DNA of 50,772 bases from Oscillospiraceae bacterium (GTDB lineage Bacteria; Bacillota; Clostridia; Oscillospirales; Oscillospiraceae), in the NCBI GenBank assembly GCA_017461585.1, contig JAFTYM010000036.1, positions 1-50,772 of the forward strand. Reading direction: 5' to 3'. The notes below the pieces were generated by a model. The model was not told the origin of the DNA and made no database searches. It saw only the letters and a list, made by a program, of their open reading frames with translations. Shown here piece by piece: positions 174 through 37,006 of the stretch (the stretch's first letter is position 1; each line of letters starts with the position of its first letter). A program made the translations under genes and the position numbers.

Positions 174-851
174 TTACGTCAACAGTATAAATAATGAAAA
201 GACGCTTACCAAGGTGGTCAGCAGCAAAAGTCCCAGTCCTGCGTATAAAAGCGCAGAGGGCAGCGAAACTGTGCCTTTTTCTTTTGTCTGCTTTGCAGAA
301 GGCAGCTTTACGGGCTTTTTATTATCGTCATCGTAGATGAAAAAGCCGTCCAGCTGGGAAATTACGCCCTCTTTTTTTGCGAAAAATCCACGGCTATCCT
401 TCACGGGGTCAACCACATAAGCCGTCTGAAAAGGCAGGTCAAAAAAGTTTTCCTGAATGAACATGTCATAGCTTGAGAGAAAAACATCATACCCCGGATG
501 GGTGTGGTGCCAGCCTAAAATAATCTTTTCGGGGCATCGCTTTTCGTGGCGTGTGTGGACATAGTCCCATGTGTCGTGGGTGAAGGTAAGTGATGAGGCG
601 GTGGCGTCCGTATATTTCGCCTCGATATACTCCGAGATGATAATATGCATGCCGTTTTCATCCTCAAGGTGCTGACCCAAGAGAATGCTGCCTGCCTCGT
701 TGTGTATATCCAGCGCGGAGTACTCCTCAATATCCCTGTATACATCCTGCTTTATATAGACCTTGACGCTGCCTTCCGTATCGCCTACAGGCTGAATATT
801 CTTCGGCAGCTTAACTGCAGGCCCGGTCGATTTTTTGCGGAAAATTGCCAT
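174..851 (-). CDS. Membrane-anchored JAMM/MPN (JAB) isopeptidase, last gene of the Ubl operon
   Basis: This 225-residue protein has a JAB/MPN metalloprotease fold. The JAMM signature is complete: Glu52, His116-x-His118-Pro, then Ser126 and Asp129 (HTHPGYDVFLSSYD). Enzymes of this family cut the isopeptide or peptide bond after a ubiquitin-like protein. A hydrophobic segment at about 200-224 ends the protein, so the catalytic domain should be tethered to the inner face of the membrane. It lies 3 bp after the RING-like gene and is paralogous to the JAB gene two genes upstream, sharing the IISxxIEAKYTDAT and ENFF blocks. The likely role is maturing or removing the Ubl at 6613-6885. The fold and motif are seen; the substrate is inferred from context. 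Confidence 0.9.
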   Translation of the reverse strand: MAIFRKKSTGPAVKLPKNIQPVGDTEGSVKVYIKQDVYRDIEEYSALDIHNEAGSILLGQHLEDENGMHIIISEYIEAKYTDATASSLTFTHDTWDYVHTRHEKRCPEKIILGWHHTHPGYDVFLSSYDMFIQENFFDLPFQTAYVVDPVKDSRGFFAKKEGVISQLDGFFIYDDDNKKPVKLPSAKQTKEKGTVSLPSALLYAGLGLLLLTTLVSVFSLFILLT

Positions 852-854
852 AGC

Positions 855-1622
855 TTACAGACCTAAGAGAACGGCGATAACGCAGGCGATGAAGCTGATG
901 AGAGCAGCTTTGTTCATGTCTGCGCCTGTGCGTGCGGCAAGATATTTGCTCTTGGCGGGCTCAGAGACATGGCTTGCAAAATCCGTTACCTTTTTGAGAT
1001 AGTCGCGGTACAGGTGGTTTGCAAATACACCGAAAACTGCGTAGCCTGCCCAGCAGAGTACGGTTCCTATCCAGCCCAAAAGCCCTGAGAGCAGAGAAGC
1101 GGCGATAAAGAGGGCGGCAGCGTGGACATACATCTTTCTGTAGATGCACCAGAAGGGGGAAATGAGAAATGCAGCCCAGTTCCAGCTTGCCTTGGAGTTT
1201 CCTGTGTCCATGTCGCGGAATTTGCGGTTATAAAAGTCCGTGTTCTGCTGGATATATGCGTCATAGGGACCTGTCAGCGGCTGCTGTACAGGGGGAGTGT
1301 AGGTCTGATGTGTGGGGTAAGCAGGGGGGACGGGAGTGGGACGAACAGGGGCAGGTGTGCCGTTTAGGCTGTTGCCGCAGGTGCCGCAGAAGGAGTCGCC
1401 GACTGTGTGGGGAGTTCCGCAGTAGGGGCAGAATGCCATACCTGCATTTTTTGCAGATGTGCCCTGAATGGTACCTGTACAGCCGAAAGTGGTGCACTCC
1501 TGATTTTCAACCCAGCACTCCTTATGGTGGGGCATTTCGCATACGCTGCAGATAACAACGTCGTCACCTTCTTTAAAAGGTGTTTTGCAATAGGGACAGG
1601 TTTTGCCTAAAAATTCGCTCAT
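855..1622 (-). CDS. Prokaryotic RING-like / zinc-ribbon membrane protein, candidate E3
   Basis: This 255-residue protein has an N-terminal treble-clef RING-like module with ligands in the order C9xxC12, C25xxC28, H33xxC36, C43, C48, as in prokaryotic RING finger family 1. A classical zinc ribbon (C65xxC68, C79xxC82) and a Pro/Thr/Gln-rich linker follow. The C-terminal half resembles DUF2628, with WNWAAFLISPFW and several membrane segments (about 148-205 and 240-255). RING modules recruit E2 enzymes, and an E2-like gene lies two genes upstream, so a ligase (E3) role at the membrane is plausible but inferred. The start codon overlaps the stop of the upstream JAB gene (ATGA), showing translational coupling. 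It could instead be only a structural scaffold. Confidence 0.85.
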   Translation of the reverse strand: MSEFLGKTCPYCKTPFKEGDDVVICSVCEMPHHKECWVENQECTTFGCTGTIQGTSAKNAGMAFCPYCGTPHTVGDSFCGTCGNSLNGTPAPVRPTPVPPAYPTHQTYTPPVQQPLTGPYDAYIQQNTDFYNRKFRDMDTGNSKASWNWAAFLISPFWCIYRKMYVHAAALFIAASLLSGLLGWIGTVLCWAGYAVFGVFANHLYRDYLKKVTDFASHVSEPAKSKYLAARTGADMNKAALISFIACVIAVLLGL

Positions 1623-2521
1623 TCTGCAGGTTCTCCTTCCTGAGTGGTGGTGTCAGTATTCTCTGACTGGGTTGTGTCCGTGTCGGCTGCGCCGTCTGTC
1701 TCTTCTGCGGGAGTGAGAGCGTTTACCTGTGTCTGCAGAGAGCTGACCTGCTGGTCAAGAACGGCAAAGTTCTGATTATAGCTGTAGATCATGGATTCCG
1801 TTGTCTTTTCAAGCTTGGTTATTCTGCTGCCGAGACTCATTATGACAAACGCCATGACTACCATAACGACGCACATTGCGGCGATGATGACATTTTGTGT
1901 GTTAAAGGGTGAGCGCACAGAGGAGGGCGTGACGTTTTTGGAATCCTCGTCCACCTCTACGGTTATCTTCTTGCCCGTCTTGTCGTAAATGTAAAAGCCG
2001 GGGCACTTTGTAAGTACGCCGTTTATCCAGAAATAGAAGCCCTCTGTGTTCTGAATGGGGTCTACAACATAGGCGATGTCGTGTTCGTCGCTGAAGAAGT
2101 TCTCGTGAATAAACTTGTCATACTCGGACAGGAAGATGCCGAAGTTGGGATGTGTGTGTATCCAGCCTACGATCTTTTTGCCGGGGAAGCGCTCCGCCAT
2201 CTCCTTGTGGCAATGCTCCCATGTCTCGTGGGTGAACTTCAATGTTGTGGGAGTGGCATCGGTGTATTTAGCCTCGATAAAGCCGGAGATGATGATGTGC
2301 ATTTTGCCGAACTCCTGCACTACCTCACCGATGAGCATGCCGCCGCTCTCGTTTTCCGTCTTGTTTGCGGCAAAACGGCGAATTTTCTTATAGACGTTCT
2401 GAGCGATGTAGATGTTCTTGTCCTCAGTAACTCTCTCGCCTACGGCTACGATGTTCTGGGGAAGACCGCCAAGATCCTCCTGCGGTTTTGTTTTTGCTTT
2501 TTTTGTCTTTTTCTTAGCCAT
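1619..2521 (-). CDS. Membrane-anchored JAMM/MPN (JAB) isopeptidase with coiled-coil tail
   Basis: I chose the ATG at 2521 (MAKKKTKK) because a GGAG lies 8 bp before it; an in-frame GTG at 2530 is also possible. The 300-residue protein has a Lys-rich N-terminus and a JAB domain with intact JAMM residues Glu58, His122-x-His124-Pro, Ser132 and Asp135 (HTHPNFGIFLSEYD). One membrane span at about 210-230 is followed by a probable coiled coil and an acidic Thr/Glu-rich tail. The order implies a cytoplasmic protease domain and a tail on the far side of the membrane. It is a diverged paralogue of the JAB at 174-851; two such enzymes may split precursor processing from deconjugation (inference). It starts 5 bp after the serine protease stop and overlaps the RING gene. 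Confidence 0.9.
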   Translation of the reverse strand: MAKKKTKKAKTKPQEDLGGLPQNIVAVGERVTEDKNIYIAQNVYKKIRRFAANKTENESGGMLIGEVVQEFGKMHIIISGFIEAKYTDATPTTLKFTHETWEHCHKEMAERFPGKKIVGWIHTHPNFGIFLSEYDKFIHENFFSDEHDIAYVVDPIQNTEGFYFWINGVLTKCPGFYIYDKTGKKITVEVDEDSKNVTPSSVRSPFNTQNVIIAAMCVVMVVMAFVIMSLGSRITKLEKTTESMIYSYNQNFAVLDQQVSSLQTQVNALTPAEETDGAADTDTTQSENTDTTTQEGEPAE

Positions 2522-2526
2522 GAAAA

Positions 2527-3510
2527 TCACTCCATGAATTCGATTTCAAAGTCAGTTCTCTCTGTGGGGTCAACTGTTATTTCTATGGGCTCTTCCGTAA
2601 AGGGTTCGGGTGAGTGTCTGCGCTTTACGGTTATATATGTGATAAGACCGATGTTTGCAAGGAAGGATACGCCGAATAAAATGGCGAGAATTGCCACCTC
2701 GGTCCTGTTGTTCTCGATGATTACGTTCGGCTGTGCCTCAGGGGGAGTGTAGCCTTCTGAAGGGGTATCTCCGCCGGCAGAACCGTCAGGCGTTAAATTG
2801 TCAAAATCTGAAAAATCGGGCGCCTCATCTTCAGGCTCCGAAGGTACAGCGGGAGCTGTAACGGTGCTTTCAATGTTGCCCTTGTCGTTAAATTCAAGAC
2901 CGCAGGAAATGAGAAAATCAATGGCGGTGTCAATTGGGATGGCAAAGCCGATGCCCTCGCTGTTGGTGTATTTAAGGGTGTTTATGCCCAGAACCTCACC
3001 GTTGTCGTTGAGCAGAGGACCGCCTGAGTTGCCGCTGTTTATGGGGGCGTCTATCTGAATGTAATAGTAGCCGTCCATCTCGCGGTTTTTGGCTGAAATT
3101 GCGCCTGTTGTGAGCGTATAGCTTAAGCCGCGGGGAGCGCCGATGGTGTAGATATCCTCGCCTATTTTGGCGGAGTCAATGTCGCCTTTGGGCAGGGGTG
3201 TGAACTCAGCCCCGTCAACCACTAAAAGGGCAATGTCCAGATCATAGTCAGCTGCGCAGATATAGGCAGGGTAGCTGTTTCCGTCATAGGTGTCCACGGT
3301 TATGGTGCGCGCGCCCTCAATAACGTGGGCGTTTGTGATGACGGTGTTGGGACCTGCGGCAAAGCCTGAGCCTATAGCCTCGTCTGTGTAGATGACGAAT
3401 ACGGACTCGTAGACCTTTTCCGCGTCAAAGCCTATGGCATATACAAAGAAAGAGGAGGCAAACAGACACAGTAAAAGAACGGTAAGAATAATGGTCGTAA
3501 ACTTTTTCAT
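2527..3510 (-). CDS. Membrane trypsin-like serine protease of the Ubl operon
   Basis: This 327-residue protein has an N-terminal signal or anchor segment (6-25), a trypsin-like domain with His62 (NAHVIEGA), Asp92 (DYDLDIAL) and Ser162 in GNSGGP, a Pro/Glu-rich linker, and a membrane span at about 270-292 with a short charged cytoplasmic tail. No PDZ domain is visible, unlike HtrA. The protease domain should therefore lie outside the membrane while the conjugation enzymes lie inside. It sits between the E2-FHA and JAB genes with short gaps, so it is part of the same operon. It might act on the outer domains of the membrane partners or sense envelope stress; this is inference. The protease assignment itself is firm. 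Confidence 0.9.
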   Translation of the reverse strand: MKKFTTIILTVLLLCLFASSFFVYAIGFDAEKVYESVFVIYTDEAIGSGFAAGPNTVITNAHVIEGARTITVDTYDGNSYPAYICAADYDLDIALLVVDGAEFTPLPKGDIDSAKIGEDIYTIGAPRGLSYTLTTGAISAKNREMDGYYYIQIDAPINSGNSGGPLLNDNGEVLGINTLKYTNSEGIGFAIPIDTAIDFLISCGLEFNDKGNIESTVTAPAVPSEPEDEAPDFSDFDNLTPDGSAGGDTPSEGYTPPEAQPNVIIENNRTEVAILAILFGVSFLANIGLITYITVKRRHSPEPFTEEPIEITVDPTERTDFEIEFME

Positions 3511-3531
3511 AGCTGTTTGCCTCCGAAAATT

Positions 3532-5415
3532 TTATTTTGTATGGAATACCAGTACAGAGTTGCCGATGGCAATCGTGTCGCCCTGTCTTAAGATGCGGCG
3601 CTCTGACTTCATGCCGTTGACAACTGTGCCCATGGGAGTACCCTTGTCAACGATTACATATTTGCTGCCCTCCAGGACGATGTCGCAATGGTGAGGAGCC
3701 ACCAGCTTGTCCTTAAAGAGAACGATGGAGTTTTTGCTGTTGTTGCCGATGCTTGTTGTGCCTGCAAAGACCAGATATTCCTTGCCCTCAAACTCGCCTC
3801 GGATGACCTTGAGCCATGCCTGCTTTGCAAACTGCTCCAAAAGACCTACGCCAAGACCGATAAGCATGCCCATGATGACGATTGCAACACCGCGGGAGAC
3901 AACGTCGTTGGGTACGATCTCAAGAATGTAGTTAAACAGGAAGCCGCCCAAAAATGCACCGACGAGACCGCCGAGAGCGCAGAATACGATGCGCTTTACC
4001 TGAGGCTTGATAAGACCGATGGAAATTCCGACGCCAAGACCCATTATTGCCCAGCCGAGACCGCGGACGAACGCGGACATAAAGGCTGTGGGATCGTCAC
4101 CAAGAAGCTCAGCGTACATAAGCTGTGCCACATAGCCGCTGCCGAAGCCGATGACAAGGGAGATGACAGCGCCGATAGCGCCGTACATGGCTGCCTTGCT
4201 GCCTGAGCCGTAGAAGATACCTTCACCAAGACCCAAAAGCAGACCGATGAACAGGGCGATGACCGCAGACCACATGGCTGTGCTCATTCTTGTTACGGAT
4301 GAAACCTGCTCAAAGAACTCTTCATCTGAGCCTGCATAGTTGATGTATGCGTTGTAAAGAGCCTCGTCTGCCTTGTCGGAGAGCTCAAGGTATTTTTCGA
4401 CGGCAGTAAGCTCTGTCTCAGATGCCTGTGCAATCCAAACACCCATGTTGTTTGTATCCTCGGCGTTTAAACCGTTTATTCTGCAGTAGTCCTCGTAGTA
4501 TTCGTTTACCACTTCAAAGGCGTTGTTTGCCTGCTGGTCGTAGGAGTAATAGTCCACAAGCTCGGGATGTCCTGCAAGCTTTGCAGCCGTCGCATCGGAA
4601 AGGAGCGTTGAACCCAGAACTTCGGATACGATGAAGCCTAAAAATGCACCGATAATCGCCCAGAGAAGACCCTTTGTCAAAATGGTCTTGAAGTTGATTC
4701 GCTTACCCTTTGCAGCGGAAGATGCACCCTGAATACGCTGTGCCGTGGGGACAAATTCGATACCTGCCAGCTCTTCTGCGGTTATCTCAAAGTCGTTGCC
4801 GTCGTCCTCAGGGATTACGGGGACAGGCTCGGGAACGGGTTCGGGTTCGGGTTCGGGAGTGGGCTCCGGTGTCTCTGTGATGACTTCTTCTTCAGACTCA
4901 TCGTCAAAGAGGTCTATCTCGATCCTCTCGGGTACCTTGTCTGCCTCTGCCATGTATAGCTCGACATTTCCGATGGGGAAGAGGTGACGGTTGTCCATCG
5001 CCCACTGAGCTGCGTCTGCAGAAAGAGGGCTGTAGGAGTTCCAGGATTTATACTGGATCATGTCGCCGATATTTACGATGATATCGGAAAGAGACTCACC
5101 TGCTCCCCAAATATCGCCGATGCAGATCTGACCGTCGCGGAAGTTGGGGTGCCAGATAGGTGTGAGGATCTTGCAGATGGGTTTATAGCGGGGATAATCG
5201 GAGTGGAGGGTTATCTCCACCTCGTGACGGCTCAAAGTCTCTATCTTGCCGTCGGGCAGAAGATAGATGCCGTTTACAAAGTATGTAACGTGGTATTTCT
5301 CGGGAGGCTCGGTGCCTACAGGGGTGATGATAATATTCTTATGCCCCGTAAAGTCACGCTGGATCTGCTCCCAGTCAGATGCGATACGACGCATTCTTAC
5401 TGACATATTTGCCAT
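3532..5415 (-). CDS. E2-like (UBC fold) conjugating enzyme fused to six membrane segments and an FHA domain
   Basis: This 627-residue protein has an N-terminal E2/UBC-like domain (about 1-150) with His89-Pro90-Asn91 and a cysteine seven residues later (Cys98, in GQICIGD), the arrangement of a ubiquitin-conjugating enzyme active site. An acidic Pro/Glu-repeat linker (about 168-205) leads to membrane segments near 249-268, 379-397, 408-430, 451-468, 475-497 and 508-527, with a loop of about 110 residues after the first. The C-terminal 80 residues are an FHA domain (TSIGNNSKNSIVL to NG and GDTIAIGN). Six spans put both end domains in the cytoplasm. The FHA lacks the usual phosphothreonine-contacting Arg (Asn558) and Ser (Ala573). 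An AAAGGAG precedes the ATG. It follows the E1 gene by 12 bp. Confidence 0.9.
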   Translation of the reverse strand: MANMSVRMRRIASDWEQIQRDFTGHKNIIITPVGTEPPEKYHVTYFVNGIYLLPDGKIETLSRHEVEITLHSDYPRYKPICKILTPIWHPNFRDGQICIGDIWGAGESLSDIIVNIGDMIQYKSWNSYSPLSADAAQWAMDNRHLFPIGNVELYMAEADKVPERIEIDLFDDESEEEVITETPEPTPEPEPEPVPEPVPVIPEDDGNDFEITAEELAGIEFVPTAQRIQGASSAAKGKRINFKTILTKGLLWAIIGAFLGFIVSEVLGSTLLSDATAAKLAGHPELVDYYSYDQQANNAFEVVNEYYEDYCRINGLNAEDTNNMGVWIAQASETELTAVEKYLELSDKADEALYNAYINYAGSDEEFFEQVSSVTRMSTAMWSAVIALFIGLLLGLGEGIFYGSGSKAAMYGAIGAVISLVIGFGSGYVAQLMYAELLGDDPTAFMSAFVRGLGWAIMGLGVGISIGLIKPQVKRIVFCALGGLVGAFLGGFLFNYILEIVPNDVVSRGVAIVIMGMLIGLGVGLLEQFAKQAWLKVIRGEFEGKEYLVFAGTTSIGNNSKNSIVLFKDKLVAPHHCDIVLEGSKYVIVDKGTPMGTVVNGMKSERRILRQGDTIAIGNSVLVFHTK

Positions 5416-5427
5416 ATTTTTTCTCCT

Positions 5428-6612
5428 TTAAAGTCCCTCAAAGACTTCGTCAAAATCTGAGGTAAACTCAAAATAGCGCATCTCATAGCCCACTCTGCCG
5501 CTTATGATGTGCAGAAGGGGAATTCCGATTTCAAAAGGTGTCTTGTCGAGAAAATCTTCCGTGCCCGTGATGGAGTGTACGGTGTCGAAATTCATGGTCT
5601 TGCCGCAAATGGGGCAGACAATGTCCTGTCCGCGCAGTTTGTGCAGGGGCATGAAAATTTCCTTGTTTTCCGAGCATGAGCAGTGGGCTCTTGTTACTAT
5701 GTCGCGGTCAAAGTCTATGACGGCATTTTCTCCCATCTCGGCTTTTACTTCGGAAAGAAGCTGACCCAAAGTTATGCTTCTTGCGCTCCAAGGCTTTTCC
5801 TCGATGTTCTCGTAGGTGTCGTGGCTCATGCAGTCAGGCTTGCGCTGATACTCCACAACATAGGAGTCGTGAGTAAGCCCGTTGAAGACATAGCACTTGC
5901 CGGCGAGTGTGGGCAGACCGCGGTCTGCGTGCAGAAGCTTTAAAAGCTCCTGTACCTGTACACCTGCGATGACCGCAGAGGAGGTTGGAGTTGTGGGTAT
6001 TTTGCCCTCTGCCATCTGCTCGTGAGTTAAGAGCGCACAGGATTTGCGCTTGTTTATAAGCTTCCAGTCTAATTCTGTCATGGTGCACTCATAGCATGCT
6101 CCCTCAGGAGGAGTGAACACACGGGCAAAGCCGTTAAGTGCCTCGATCGCGCCGTCTATAAAGGGCTTATTCACCTTATAGCAGGACTGGTTTATGGCAA
6201 GGCGTGCCTCTCTGTTGTCAAGGCCGCCCAAAACCGCGTCCATGCGTCTGAAAACACCTAGACCAATATCGTCGATTATGTTGGAAATAAAAGCCTTTGC
6301 CTTGACATCAGGATTCATCTCAGAGGCTCTCTCGGCAGCAACCTCAGCCTTGTATCTGCCCACGTCATGTGCGCGGTAGAGTACGGATCTTGTGAGGTTG
6401 GTGTGCTCGATTTTGTCCATGTCGATGATGAGGATTCTGCCGATGCCAAGGAGCGTAAGATTCTTTATAAGCTCATTTCCTATGGCACCTGCGCCAACCA
6501 CCATGATGCATGCGTTTTTAAGTCTGTCCTGCTCCCACCAGGGGATAAGACGAAGACGGGAATATCTGTCCTCTTCAAATTCAGAGGAGTTAAGCTCTAA
6601 AACCTCAGCCAT
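5428..6612 (-). CDS. E1-like (ThiF/UBA fold) ubiquitin-like activating enzyme
   Basis: This 394-residue protein has a Rossmann ATP-binding core with GAGAIG at 40-45, an Asp-x-Asp segment (IDMDKIEHTNLTR, 63-75), Lys88 and DNR at 132-134, all typical of E1 adenylation domains. CYEC (173-176) is a likely metal site. KSCALLTHEQ followed by IPTTPTSSAVIAG matches the crossover loop of canonical E1s, so Cys192 is the best candidate for the thioester cysteine. A second metal site (C311, C313, C333, C336) and a short C-terminal domain follow. It should adenylate the C-terminus of the Ubl encoded directly upstream (stop and start are adjacent, TAAATG) and pass it to the E2-like Cys98. The E1 identity is firm; the order of transfer is known for the family. 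Confidence 0.92.
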   Translation of the reverse strand: MAEVLELNSSEFEEDRYSRLRLIPWWEQDRLKNACIMVVGAGAIGNELIKNLTLLGIGRILIIDMDKIEHTNLTRSVLYRAHDVGRYKAEVAAERASEMNPDVKAKAFISNIIDDIGLGVFRRMDAVLGGLDNREARLAINQSCYKVNKPFIDGAIEALNGFARVFTPPEGACYECTMTELDWKLINKRKSCALLTHEQMAEGKIPTTPTSSAVIAGVQVQELLKLLHADRGLPTLAGKCYVFNGLTHDSYVVEYQRKPDCMSHDTYENIEEKPWSARSITLGQLLSEVKAEMGENAVIDFDRDIVTRAHCSCSENKEIFMPLHKLRGQDIVCPICGKTMNFDTVHSITGTEDFLDKTPFEIGIPLLHIISGRVGYEMRYFEFTSDFDEVFEGL

Positions 6613-6885
6613 TTATGCACCTGCGGTGATCTCAGGCTGAAGGCGGAGAACGTCGCCGTCCTTTACGCCTGCCTCAGCAAATGTCTGAGATTCTAAAAGC
6701 TGGCGGCCGGATACCTTGTGGATGAACTTGTAGCTGATGGGGTTGCCGTCAGGACCCACAGAGGGGAGCTTTATCTTCTCAATGAGCTTTACCATGATGA
6801 TGCCGGACTTGATATCGTCGGGCAGACCGACCTTCTGCTCTTTGTTGCCTGTTGCGTCTACGATGATTACATTAAGTTTTCCCAT
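6613..6885 (-). CDS. Ubiquitin-like (YukD/EsaB-like beta-grasp) modifier protein
   Basis: This 90-residue protein has a beta-grasp pattern: the N-terminal strand LNVIIVDA, a helix near 24-38, a conserved SYKFIHKVSGRQL strand-turn region, and GVKDGDVLRL near the end, as in YukD-like Ubl proteins. The tail is EITAGA, so the last glycine is followed by one alanine; removal of that residue would expose a Gly end for E1 activation (inference). It is the first gene of the E1-E2-JAB operon, preceded by a strong GGAGG site and, 30 bp further up, by a terminator-like hairpin. The Ubl call rests on fold-like features plus context. A stand-alone YukD protein of a type VII secretion system is the alternative, but no secretion genes are nearby. 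Confidence 0.82.
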   Translation of the reverse strand: MGKLNVIIVDATGNKEQKVGLPDDIKSGIIMVKLIEKIKLPSVGPDGNPISYKFIHKVSGRQLLESQTFAEAGVKDGDVLRLQPEITAGA

Positions 6886-6906: not shown

Positions 6907-6942
6907 CTAAAAAAGCACGCCGCGAAAACTTTCGCGGCGTGC
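6907..6942 (-). terminator. Strong intrinsic terminator just upstream of the Ubl gene
   Basis: Perfect 13-bp arms GCACGCCGCGAAA (6915-6927) and TTTCGCGGCGTGC (6930-6942) are followed on the minus strand by a T run. The hairpin ends the zinc-ribbon transcript and leaves under 30 bp for a Ubl promoter, so the Ubl operon may be fed by read-through or by a promoter inside the upstream gene. Confidence 0.85.
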
Positions 6943-6969: not shown

Positions 6970-7725
6970 TTAGTCCTTCCACTCGTACATGACTTCAAGA
7001 CCGCTGTCGGGATGATATGTCCAGCTTACCTCAACGTCACTTGTCTCGTCATACTGTCTGCCGTCCAGTGCGCGAGTCTCGCCCATCTTCTCATATGTGG
7101 AAGAGGGGAAGCCAAGCTCGGCATTGATGGACTCAAGAGTGTAGTATGCTGTGAGATCAATATAGTCGTCTTCGTCGTTGGGGTTTGTGTCGATGGTCAT
7201 ATAGCTGCCGTCGGAAGAAATGTTGCACCAGGAATTATACTTGATGTCGGAGAACATCTTGTTGAAGTCTTTCTTTCCGCCGCCGCCTGCGAGGATGATG
7301 ATGAGAATGATGACAACGACAGCAGCGCCGATGATGATAGGTACGATGGGCTTCTTTTTCTTCTTTGTGTCAATATTTGCGTTGAACTGGTTGATGGCAC
7401 CGGAAACGCCGGGAGCCATTGTAGCAGTAGCCTTTGTGCCGCATACGGGGCAGAAAGCCTGACCCTCATTAAGCTCTGTGCTGCAGTTAGCGCATACGGG
7501 AGTTGCGGGAGCCGCAGGTGCAGCAGGAGCAGGCATAGCGGGAGCGCCGCAGTTGCCGCAGAAAGCCTGACCGGGGTTGATGGAAGCGCCGCAGTTAGCG
7601 CAGTTAAAGGGCTGAGGAGCAGCGGGTTCTTCAACTACAGGGGGGACATACTTTGTGCCGCAGTTACCGCAGAAAGCCTGACCTTCGTTAAGCTCTGCAC
7701 CACAGCCGGAACAGATGATGCTCAT
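6970..7725 (-). CDS. Triple zinc-ribbon membrane protein
   Basis: The ATG at 7725 is chosen because a CGGAGGAAA site lies just before it; a longer frame to 7923 would overlap a promoter and the preceding gene. The 251-residue protein has three zinc ribbons (C5/C8/C19/C22, C42/C45/C56/C59, C78/C81/C92/C95) separated by Ala/Pro linkers, a Lys-rich stop, one membrane span at about 126-146, and an 85-residue outer domain without a recognised family. Zinc ribbons of this type bind protein partners or nucleic acid. It is codirectional with the Ubl operon and separated from it only by a terminator hairpin, so it may be an accessory component (inference). Confidence 0.85.
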   Translation of the reverse strand: MSIICSGCGAELNEGQAFCGNCGTKYVPPVVEEPAAPQPFNCANCGASINPGQAFCGNCGAPAMPAPAAPAAPATPVCANCSTELNEGQAFCPVCGTKATATMAPGVSGAINQFNANIDTKKKKKPIVPIIIGAAVVVIILIIILAGGGGKKDFNKMFSDIKYNSWCNISSDGSYMTIDTNPNDEDDYIDLTAYYTLESINAELGFPSSTYEKMGETRALDGRQYDETSDVEVSWTYHPDSGLEVMYEWKD

Positions 7726-7773: not shown

Positions 7774-7802
7774 ATTGTAGCTTTGAGTGCATATTTTGTC
7801 AA
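7774..7802 (-). promoter_or_regulatory. Sigma-70-type promoter for the zinc-ribbon gene and possibly the Ubl operon
   Basis: On the minus strand TTGACA (7797-7802) and TACAAT (7774-7779) are separated by exactly 17 bp, about 50 bp before the zinc-ribbon start. This is the best promoter visible upstream of the Ubl operon. Confidence 0.75.
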
Positions 7803-35500: not shown

Positions 35501-37006
35501 ATGTATTACAACTATAACGACGAAAACGAAAACACCGTAAACGGCGAAGAGGAAGTTCCCGCTCCCGAGAAAGCGGAGGTAGGTGACGTACCTGAACAGG
35601 TGAACGACATTGAGCTGACAGCGGAGGAGTTTGCGGATGCAGAAGATGTCACTGCAGCGGAAGAACCCCAGCCCTATTACGAGCCCTGGCGCGACACTGA
35701 AGGCACAGAGCCTGAGGACATGGCAGGTGCTTATTCTCCCAACTATTACCGCACCTCCACAGCAGGCTATTCCACCCCTTCCTACGAAAAGCCCGTAAAA
35801 GAGAAAAAGCCCATGAGCTCAGGTGTCAAGTTCGCCATCCGCGCGATATGCCTTATCCTCGCATGCGGTATCGTCTCAGGTCTGGCAGCGGCAGCTGTCA
35901 CAAACCATATTATCGAAAACACAGATTTTACCGTTCGAAATCAGGTAGTTTTAGGCGCACAGACCACAGGCGGCGACGGCAGCAGCAATGCGGATGCAGA
36001 TAAACTTGTAGTGCCCGACGGCAGCGTTCTGGCGGCTGACGATATTTATGACCTTGCATGTCAGCAGGCGGTAGGTATCCAGCTTGTGGCAAACGGCACA
36101 AACATCTTCGGTCAGGCAACCACGACCGAGTCTGTTATCGGCTCAGGCTTTGTCATCTCTGAGGACGGCTACATCATCACAAACTACCATGTTGCAGAGC
36201 CCTATCTGGTATACGGCGCACAGGGCGGCTACGTTCTCCGCGTAGTCCTGTACGACGGCACAACTTACGACGCAACCGTTATCGGCTATGAAGAGCAGAA
36301 CGACATCGCAGTTCTGAAGATAAACGCATCAGGTCTTAACCCTGTGACCATCGGCGATATGACCGAGGTGAGAGTGGGCAACGAGGTATACGTTGTGGGC
36401 AACCCCTTGGGCGAGCTGACCTACACAATGACAACAGGCAGAGTAAGCGCCCTTGACCGTGTTATCTCCACAGAGGTATCCTCTTCCATCAACGTTTTCC
36501 AGATAGACGCAGCCGTTAACTCCGGCAACTCCGACGGTCCCGTTTACAACAACCGCGGTGAGGTTATCGGAATTGTTGACGCAAAGTATTCAGCATCGGG
36601 CGTTGAGGGCCTTGGCTTTGCAATTCCCATTGACGACGCCATGAACATCATCACCGACCTTATCGAGCACGGCTATGTAACAGGCAAGGCATACTTCGGC
36701 ATCGGTGTCCGTACTGTGGACTCTATGACAGCTCAGTATTACAACATGCGCGAGGGTGCATTTGTAAATAACGTTGAAACAGGCAGCTGTGCTGAAAAGG
36801 CAGGACTTAAGCCGGGCGATATCATCATCAAGCTGGGCGATGACGTTGTTAAGAGCACCGAAGATCTGCAGGCGGCTAAGAATGCCTACTCCGCAGGTGA
36901 TACGGTTGCGGTTACGGTTTACCGCAGCGGCGAGGAGCTTGTCCTCTACGTCACCTTTGACGAGCAGCCTGCGAACCCCCAGACAACTTATCCCACACTC
37001 CCGTAA
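35501..37006 (+). CDS. HtrA/DegP-like protease with PDZ domain and altered active-site motif
   Basis: This 501-residue protein has an acidic cytoplasmic N-terminus (1-100), one membrane span (about 110-134), a trypsin-like domain and a C-terminal PDZ domain (about 395-490, with GAFVNNVETGSCAEKAGLKPGDII). His230 (TNYHVAEP), Asp268 (NDIAVL) and Ser344 are in place, but the motif is GNSDGP, not GNSGGP: Asp345 replaces the glycine after the serine. Its effect on the oxyanion hole is uncertain; activity may be reduced. It would otherwise degrade misfolded surface proteins. Confidence 0.9.
   Translation: MYYNYNDENENTVNGEEEVPAPEKAEVGDVPEQVNDIELTAEEFADAEDVTAAEEPQPYYEPWRDTEGTEPEDMAGAYSPNYYRTSTAGYSTPSYEKPVKEKKPMSSGVKFAIRAICLILACGIVSGLAAAAVTNHIIENTDFTVRNQVVLGAQTTGGDGSSNADADKLVVPDGSVLAADDIYDLACQQAVGIQLVANGTNIFGQATTTESVIGSGFVISEDGYIITNYHVAEPYLVYGAQGGYVLRVVLYDGTTYDATVIGYEEQNDIAVLKINASGLNPVTIGDMTEVRVGNEVYVVGNPLGELTYTMTTGRVSALDRVISTEVSSSINVFQIDAAVNSGNSDGPVYNNRGEVIGIVDAKYSASGVEGLGFAIPIDDAMNIITDLIEHGYVTGKAYFGIGVRTVDSMTAQYYNMREGAFVNNVETGSCAEKAGLKPGDIIIKLGDDVVKSTEDLQAAKNAYSAGDTVAVTVYRSGEELVLYVTFDEQPANPQTTYPTLP

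Follow-up and report, generated by a model that had tools for sequence, protein, structure and literature searches.

Bacterial operons that join a ubiquitin-like protein (Ubl) to an activating enzyme (E1), a conjugating enzyme (E2) and a JAB peptidase were catalogued by Iyer et al. in 2006 (PMC1779556); Grau-Bove et al. report a complete ubiquitin toolkit in none of their analysed bacterial genomes (PMC4327156), and another report mentions complete operons in some bacteria (PMC5654768). The Bil and Bub systems are described as combining a Ubl, an E1 and an E2 with a specific protease (PMC12687455), and a review lists these components with no ligase (E3). In the archaeon Caldiarchaeum subterraneum, an operon encodes an E1, an E2, a small RING E3 and a JAMM enzyme that removes the C-terminal extension of a diglycine-ended ubiquitin, and such an archaeal E1/E2/RING/JAMM set has been reconstituted in vitro, its JAMM enzyme cutting a pro-ubiquitin (PMC5654768). 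Here we describe seven abutting genes on the minus strand, at positions 174–6885, of a 50,772-base contig from an Oscillospiraceae bacterium (GCA_017461585.1, JAFTYM010000036.1; the entire contig was analysed and is called the window below), and we consider it probable from their sequences that they encode a complete, reversible Ubl conjugation system built into the cytoplasmic membrane. Burroughs, Iyer and Aravind reportedly predicted in a 2011 abstract RING E3s that work with E1, E2, JAB and YukD-like Ubls, and are said to have proposed possible conjugation of YukD-like Ubls; the Pfam name Prok-RING_1 fits that prediction. To our knowledge, the bacterial Ubl pathways tested so far (Bil, Bub and Cap2 of the cyclic-oligonucleotide-based anti-phage signalling system) are all soluble, and within the predicted prokaryotic Ubl systems it is the membrane-built variant that is less familiar. 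A survey of the open-access literature by titles and the openings of abstracts, with most subscription papers outside its scope, returned no experimental work on this architecture.

The genes run in the order Ubl, E1, E2–transmembrane–FHA, HtrA-type protease, JAB, RING, JAB, separated by at most 21 bases or overlapping by 4, and each product matches a Pfam model above its curated cut-off:

6613..6885, minus strand: YukD-type Ubl modifier, 90 amino acids (Pfam YukD 42.1 bits, cut-off 27)
5428..6612, minus strand: E1-like activating enzyme, 394 amino acids (Pfam ThiF 190.4 bits)
3532..5415, minus strand: E2 (UBC), acidic linker, about five hydrophobic helices and FHA-like domain, 627 amino acids (Pfam UQ_con 34.6 bits, FHA 44.6 bits)
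2527..3510, minus strand: HtrA-type serine protease (Pfam Trypsin_2 111.2 bits)
1619..2530, minus strand: JAMM peptidase 1 (Pfam JAB 40.7 bits)
855..1622, minus strand: RING (C4HC3), zinc ribbon and two hydrophobic segments, E3 candidate (Pfam Prok-RING_1 48.1 bits, cut-off 29.1)
174..851, minus strand: JAMM peptidase 2 (Pfam JAB 27.8 bits)

A simple hydropathy scan finds hydrophobic segments in five of the seven proteins (E2, protease, both JABs and RING) and none in the Ubl or E1. The preliminary description of this DNA, made from its letters and open reading frames alone, had named the same seven abutting genes as a YukD-like modifier, an E1, an E2, a RING-like protein, two JAMM peptidases and a serine protease, five of them with membrane segments, and had set the operon apart from Bil; the Pfam matches, the scan and the motifs described below bear it out on each of these points. 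Ubl, E1, E2, JAB and RING occur together, with the HPN and Cys of the E2 and all eight RING ligands in place, as in the RING-containing prokaryotic Ubl systems. The evidence supports a membrane-based conjugation operon distinct from Bil: the window has a single YukD-type Ubl domain, an HPN-type E2, a RING protein and hydrophobic anchors, whereas BilA is described with two Ubl domains and BilB with a CEHH motif (PMC11354881), and no window protein matched the PADLOC model of BilB at E up to 0.05. It shares E1, E2, RING and JAMM with the Caldiarchaeum operon, for which the available part of the source mentions neither membrane anchoring nor FHA nor HtrA (PMC5654768). Judged by its sequence, the gene set is real, selected, complete and membrane-built, and of a kind predicted before.

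A profile of six E2 cores was scanned over a collection in which 84,980 species are represented by a single genome each. Because the scan used two short E2 peptide patterns, the resulting counts are lower bounds, and every locus was chosen for having this E2. It yielded 68 further loci, mostly in Clostridia and Armatimonadota: L043–L086 are clostridial in type, including records titled Roseiflexaceae (L078) and Synergistales/Synergistaceae (L063, L080) that may reflect transfer or misplacement; L087, L089 and L106 belong to Clostridiaceae/Tindallia, the Anoxynatronum locus L106 having a five-gene set; L088 is titled Abditibacteriota, and most of the others Armatimonadota or Zipacnadia. (L036/L043, L037/L076, L038/L082 and L039/L079 are repeated entries; L001, L020, L035 and L111 are the window itself.) All seven genes stand in the window's order at 14 of the 68, in an annotation by family hidden Markov models that were built from the same loci and whose JAB1/JAB2 labels are unreliable; many other loci are cut by contig ends and some lack a gene. 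The preliminary description had proposed a search for the same gene order in other genomes, and there the genes do co-occur: 21 clostridial-type loci are long enough to judge, and all of them have Ubl, E1, JAB and an FHA domain, with the set on one strand throughout, and 20 have a RING; seven of eight other long-enough loci have Ubl, E1, RING and JAB (HtrA in three). Ratios of non-synonymous to synonymous substitution (dN/dS) are 0.02–0.35 wherever computable (six pairs), except for 0.62 in one large RING gene; open reading frames were read stop to stop, so that leaders are included in lengths and ratios.

The E2 carries HPN at residues 89–91 and Cys98 (codon 5122–5124), both present in 36 of 36 aligned rows (the window plus 35 of 41 E2–FHA proteins, mostly near-copies being dropped). 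Across 73 E2 matches, a pattern finds HPN and Cys in 69, and in the remaining four they were seen by eye at longer spacing. The window's E2 core is 47–83% identical to those of five relatives and matches solved ubiquitin-conjugating enzymes (best E 2.8e-8; profile search 1e-6). Four Armatimonadota-type loci (L090, L094, L099, L105) have, ahead of the HtrA gene, a second E2 in which HPN and Cys stand further apart. The hydrophobic segments sit between the UBC and FHA-like domains; Armatimonadota-type loci instead encode hydrophobic segments and FHA as a protein of their own (six such proteins, with four to six segments; that of L090 confirmed as FHA). In the E1 tree, the rows with fused E2s group on one side with strong support (100/100, 39 rows); three rows labelled E2_free (L058, L067, L071) also fall inside this clade, since a contig end truncates their E2.

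The FHA domain of the preliminary description is present by its Pfam score but has lost the usual phosphothreonine-binding Arg. Aligned with GarA, the fused domains have Asn (34 of 36) or Ser (2 of 36) in place of the pocket Arg and keep the pocket Ser in 4 of 36, these being the positions that we take to bind phosphothreonine. We therefore reject canonical phosphothreonine reading by the fused domain, which on this alignment is taken as a scaffold. Among the separate FHA proteins of Armatimonadota-type loci, Arg is kept in three of seven (L102, L103, L104).

The E1 joins a ThiF domain to a Cys-rich C-terminal part, and its best matches among sequences of solved structure are UBA7 and yeast-type UBA1 (E 4.5e-30). 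Across all 41 aligned rows (the window plus 40 of 50 full-length E1s, again mostly near-copies dropped; window identity to the 40, 49–78%), the G-x-G-x-x-G residues, Asp64, Asp66, Arg75, Lys88, Asp132 and Cys192 (codon 6037–6039) are invariant. C173/C176/C261–H264 and C311/C313/C333/C336 are likely metal ligands; once they are set aside, Cys192 is the sole invariant Cys left and hence the candidate thioester residue, as first proposed, with HMMER alignments to eukaryotic E1s stopping near residue 180, short of it. The E1 also matches ThiF and MoeB models, albeit below their cut-offs, as would be expected of a sulfur-carrier or cofactor pathway of the MoeB/ThiF type with unrelated neighbours; we give that account hardly any credence, given the extra invariant Cys192 and the recurrence, across loci, of a UBC E2 with HPN and Cys, a RING and JAMM enzymes in the same operon. 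In L068 and L094 the E1 is split into two open reading frames, and in L066 the Ubl frame is broken, through decay or sequencing errors.

The window's Ubl has a single YukD match (residues 12–82 of 90), is 57–90% identical to 26 relatives, and ends in PEITAG, of which the glycine is Gly89 (codon 6619–6621), followed by a one-residue tail, Ala90. The same end recurs in 53 of the 54 Ubl copies of other loci, the exception being the broken L066, and conservation stops at its glycine: 16 copies end there, 32 carry tails of 1–10 variable residues and 5 are fusions. With residues after the glycine in 37 of 53 copies, five of them fusions, the pattern resembles that of a processed modifier, and processing by the JAMM enzymes is likely; an archaeal JAMM enzyme makes such a cut on a pro-ubiquitin (PMC5654768). 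In the fusion of L076 a zinc ribbon and hydrophobic segments directly follow PEITAG, and in L061, L064, L067 and L074 a lipoprotein-signal-like stretch, recognized by reading, follows in frame. A lipoprotein signal behind a folded domain would require prior removal of that domain, which fits JAMM cleavage after the glycine, although an internal start codon may serve instead.

The modifier belongs to the same sequence family as YukD/EsaB, so that the operon could in principle be an accessory part of type VII (ESX) secretion, where FHA-like domains also occur in EssC; in one genome, five WXG100 matches (G332:C89:27902–29495) lie about 15 kb away on the operon's own contig. Carriers of the operon, however, seldom have WXG100 genes: among the 25 operon genomes searched, only 2 have matches above the cut-off and 4 have matches at E ≤ 0.001 (two genomes being entered twice, G361 with L043 and G444 with L082, and several incomplete), and the window's own genome (2.07 Mb, 79% complete) has none. 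Window-type Ubls also differ from YukD/EsaB in their strict Gly end and their E1 and E2 partners. A type VII role, highly improbable in our estimate, is set aside because WXG100 is so scarce in these genomes.

The eight RING ligands (in the window Cys9, 12, 25 and 28, His32 or 33, and Cys36, 43 and 48) are invariant in 25 aligned rows, and the eight-ligand pattern is found in 66 of 68 RING proteins, one miss being cut by a contig end and one not fitting. The JAMM motif, which reads HTHPNFGIFLSEYD at residue 125 of JAMM peptidase 1, is intact in both window enzymes and in 97 of 97 JAB proteins. Peptidase 1 has one C-terminal hydrophobic segment and peptidase 2 a hydrophobic segment in its tail, and the downstream JAB carries LysM in 14 of 21 aligned members. 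The HtrA-type protease has an N-terminal signal or anchor, a C-terminal hydrophobic segment and a short tail; its His, Asp and Ser motifs are present (of 39 HtrA proteins, all have a Ser motif and 35 a His motif), it matches the degP_htrA_DO model at E 1.6e-47, below the curated cut-off, and Pfam gives no PDZ match. A second HtrA-like protein, recognized by reading its translation, lies away from the operon at 35501–37006.

Three further features lie upstream of the Ubl gene:

6970..7725, minus strand: zinc-ribbon, transmembrane and ectodomain protein, directly upstream of the Ubl gene (zinc ribbons DZR 64.1 bits)
6915..6942, minus strand: 12-pair hairpin followed by TTTTTT, a possible terminator or attenuator between the zinc-ribbon and Ubl genes (folding and shuffles)
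7774..7802, minus strand: sigma-70-like promoter TTGACA-17-TACAAT (11/12), upstream of the zinc-ribbon gene (consensus match only)

Of 37 clostridial-type loci, 25 have a similar zinc-ribbon membrane gene less than 400 bases ahead of the Ubl gene, and the window's copy is probably the first gene of its operon, so that the seven-gene extent given previously holds for those seven but probably falls one gene short. In L043 and L054 this upstream protein begins with a RING domain and therefore looks like a receptor-type E3. At five loci (L045, L056, L059, L069, L085) the upstream RING proteins reach 700–820 amino acids; in a scan of three of them, a TPR-like ANAPC3 model was matched above its cut-off in L069 and below it in L056. 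The hairpin is stable for its composition (minimum free energy −25.2 kcal/mol, z −3.98, none of 200 shuffled sequences doing as well); a strict hairpin-plus-T-run pattern matches only 2 of 25 relatives, so that it is not a general feature, and we rejected it as a conserved terminator. The promoter pattern occurs at 16 sites in the window against 8.2 expected.

From the gene set, its motifs and their conservation, and the predicted hydrophobic segments, all of which are observed, we infer the catalytic steps, topology, targets and purpose as follows. The JAMM peptidases would trim the Ubl precursor after Gly89 or, in relatives, free the Ubl from fused partners; the E1 would adenylate Gly89 and then hold the Ubl as a thioester on Cys192, from which it would pass to Cys98 of the membrane-anchored E2. 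The membrane RING protein, joined in relatives by the second RING/zinc-ribbon membrane protein with its ectodomain, would position the Ubl on targets at the membrane, and the JAMM enzymes of the same membrane would take it off again. Outside, the HtrA-type protease, with the LysM and receptor-like ectodomains of relatives, would probably couple tagging to the state of the envelope. The most likely purpose is to regulate membrane proteins, or to keep up their quality, when the envelope is stressed. More tentatively, as a possibility that we do not favour, the ectodomains, LysM and extracytoplasmic HtrA may sense the envelope while RING membrane proteins tag membrane or envelope proteins with a JAMM-removable YukD-type modifier, and in some species cleavage of the fusions may also release a lipoprotein or membrane protein.

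Several observations weigh against a membrane-built conjugation system of this design. The operon encodes no recognized segregase or cytosolic protease, and the domain of its one HtrA-type protease should lie outside the cell. The modifier lacks a mature diglycine C-terminus, ending instead in a single Gly and a short tail; the family's namesake, YukD of B. subtilis, is reported not to be conjugated (PMC1779556); and no Pfam UFD domain was matched in 41 E1 members. The gene set also varies: among the 21 long clostridial-type loci, HtrA is found in 17, at least two JABs in 12 and the window's arrangement of RING downstream of E2 in only 16, four having their only RING gene upstream and one none that was found. 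Beyond these 21, L088 has the E2 alone, and at L073 a Ubl is followed by two E2–FHA genes and a JAB, the search there finding no E1. The window's own downstream JAB is without LysM and its upstream gene has zinc ribbons only, with no RING, which makes the link to the envelope weaker here than in relatives.

Eukaryotic membrane ubiquitylation offers an analogy: Ubc6 is a membrane-anchored E2, and Doa10 and the MARCH proteins carry a C4HC3-type RING on a membrane protein. The operon resembles them in its anchored E2 and C4HC3-type RING, as an analogy and not as membership, and differs in having no proteasome or Cdc48 partner among its genes. On the more tentative, envelope-sensing reading, the operon would be the bacterial equivalent of MARCH/Doa10-type ubiquitylation, found in Clostridia with a related form in Armatimonadota. 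A RING-bearing, membrane-built system with ubiquitin-type E1 and E2 would make it possible to test directly, in carriers that are in culture such as Clostridium weizhouense YB-6 and Massiliimalia massiliensis, whether ligase-guided, reversible tagging at membranes existed outside eukaryotes, and it would mean a covalent role for a protein of the YukD family.

Within the window's own lineage the operon is rare. Among 250 genomes from its family, the window's own is the only one to match UQ_con (PF00179), and a whole-E2 protein search of 60 genomes gave a full-length match only in that genome and partial ones in three others. In the class, Prok-RING_1 exceeds its cut-off in 21 of 391 genomes: operon genes adjoin in 7, the window's included, one (G226) is a contig stub, and 13, all of the same order, show no other operon gene in flanks of about 1.5 kb. 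The proteins of these 13 (L005–L017) score 65–94 bits and perhaps represent another use of the RING. An E2 match occurs in 5 of 398 genomes of the phylum, the window's among them and one partial. By these low counts the operon is scattered. A real operon on a contig wrongly placed in this genome, its host and rarity thus misjudged, would explain why the E2 search gave no match in four other genomes of the genus and why the contig ends at the operon, 173 bases beyond it; against this, operon G+C (0.49–0.51) lies inside the range of the remaining contig (0.46–0.52), and the neighbours read in translation as ordinary chromosomal genes, such as threonyl-tRNA synthetase and thiolases, and we judge misplacement improbable. 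The genome contains Spo0A_C, which is consistent with the spore-forming host first suggested but falls short of proof.

Patchiness would suit an inducible conflict or anti-phage system like Bil or Bub, anchored in the membrane to act on phage entry, release or cell killing. Some copies keep fitting company: of 54 Ubl loci, 10 have an upstream XRE gene, 7 an XRE and M78 peptidase pair resembling CapH+CapP, and 5 an integrase, Pfam confirming M78 and HTH_3 in L048. The gene just before that pair (L048:5313–6146) encodes Ltp lipoprotein repeats (PF07553, 122.6 bits), and its product matches a zinc ribbon weakly; Ltp proteins of phages block superinfection. Some Bil/Bub copies likewise have helix-turn-helix and peptidase regulators nearby, and 219 of 544 Bub operons are reported with CapW or CapH+CapP (EMBO J. 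2026, PMC13373217), although the same source describes protection by Bub against phage as not demonstrated. The window has no relatives of those XRE, M78 and integrase proteins at E up to 1, and L087–L110 have no XRE, M78 or integrase, six of them instead having one neighbour gene in common, as loci at a settled position in the chromosome would. No match appeared in viral contigs or phages, and the PADLOC matches fall on models of shared domains (E1–E2, E2, JAB, BilD at E 3.6e-7 and protease; for the E1, the best 25 of 33) with no whole system. Defence is thus unlikely as the general function, yet it is a live rival for some copies of the operon.

Carriage on phages or plasmids was rejected: there was no phage or viral match, the one plasmid E2, from Crinalium, is 26.8% identical, and no near plasmid DNA match was found. 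In Clostridium weizhouense (L082:14385–20466), neighbours of the operon include a DUF4280 gene (105 bits) and a protein whose Phage_GPD baseplate hub match falls just below the cut-off, which suggests a contractile-type cluster.

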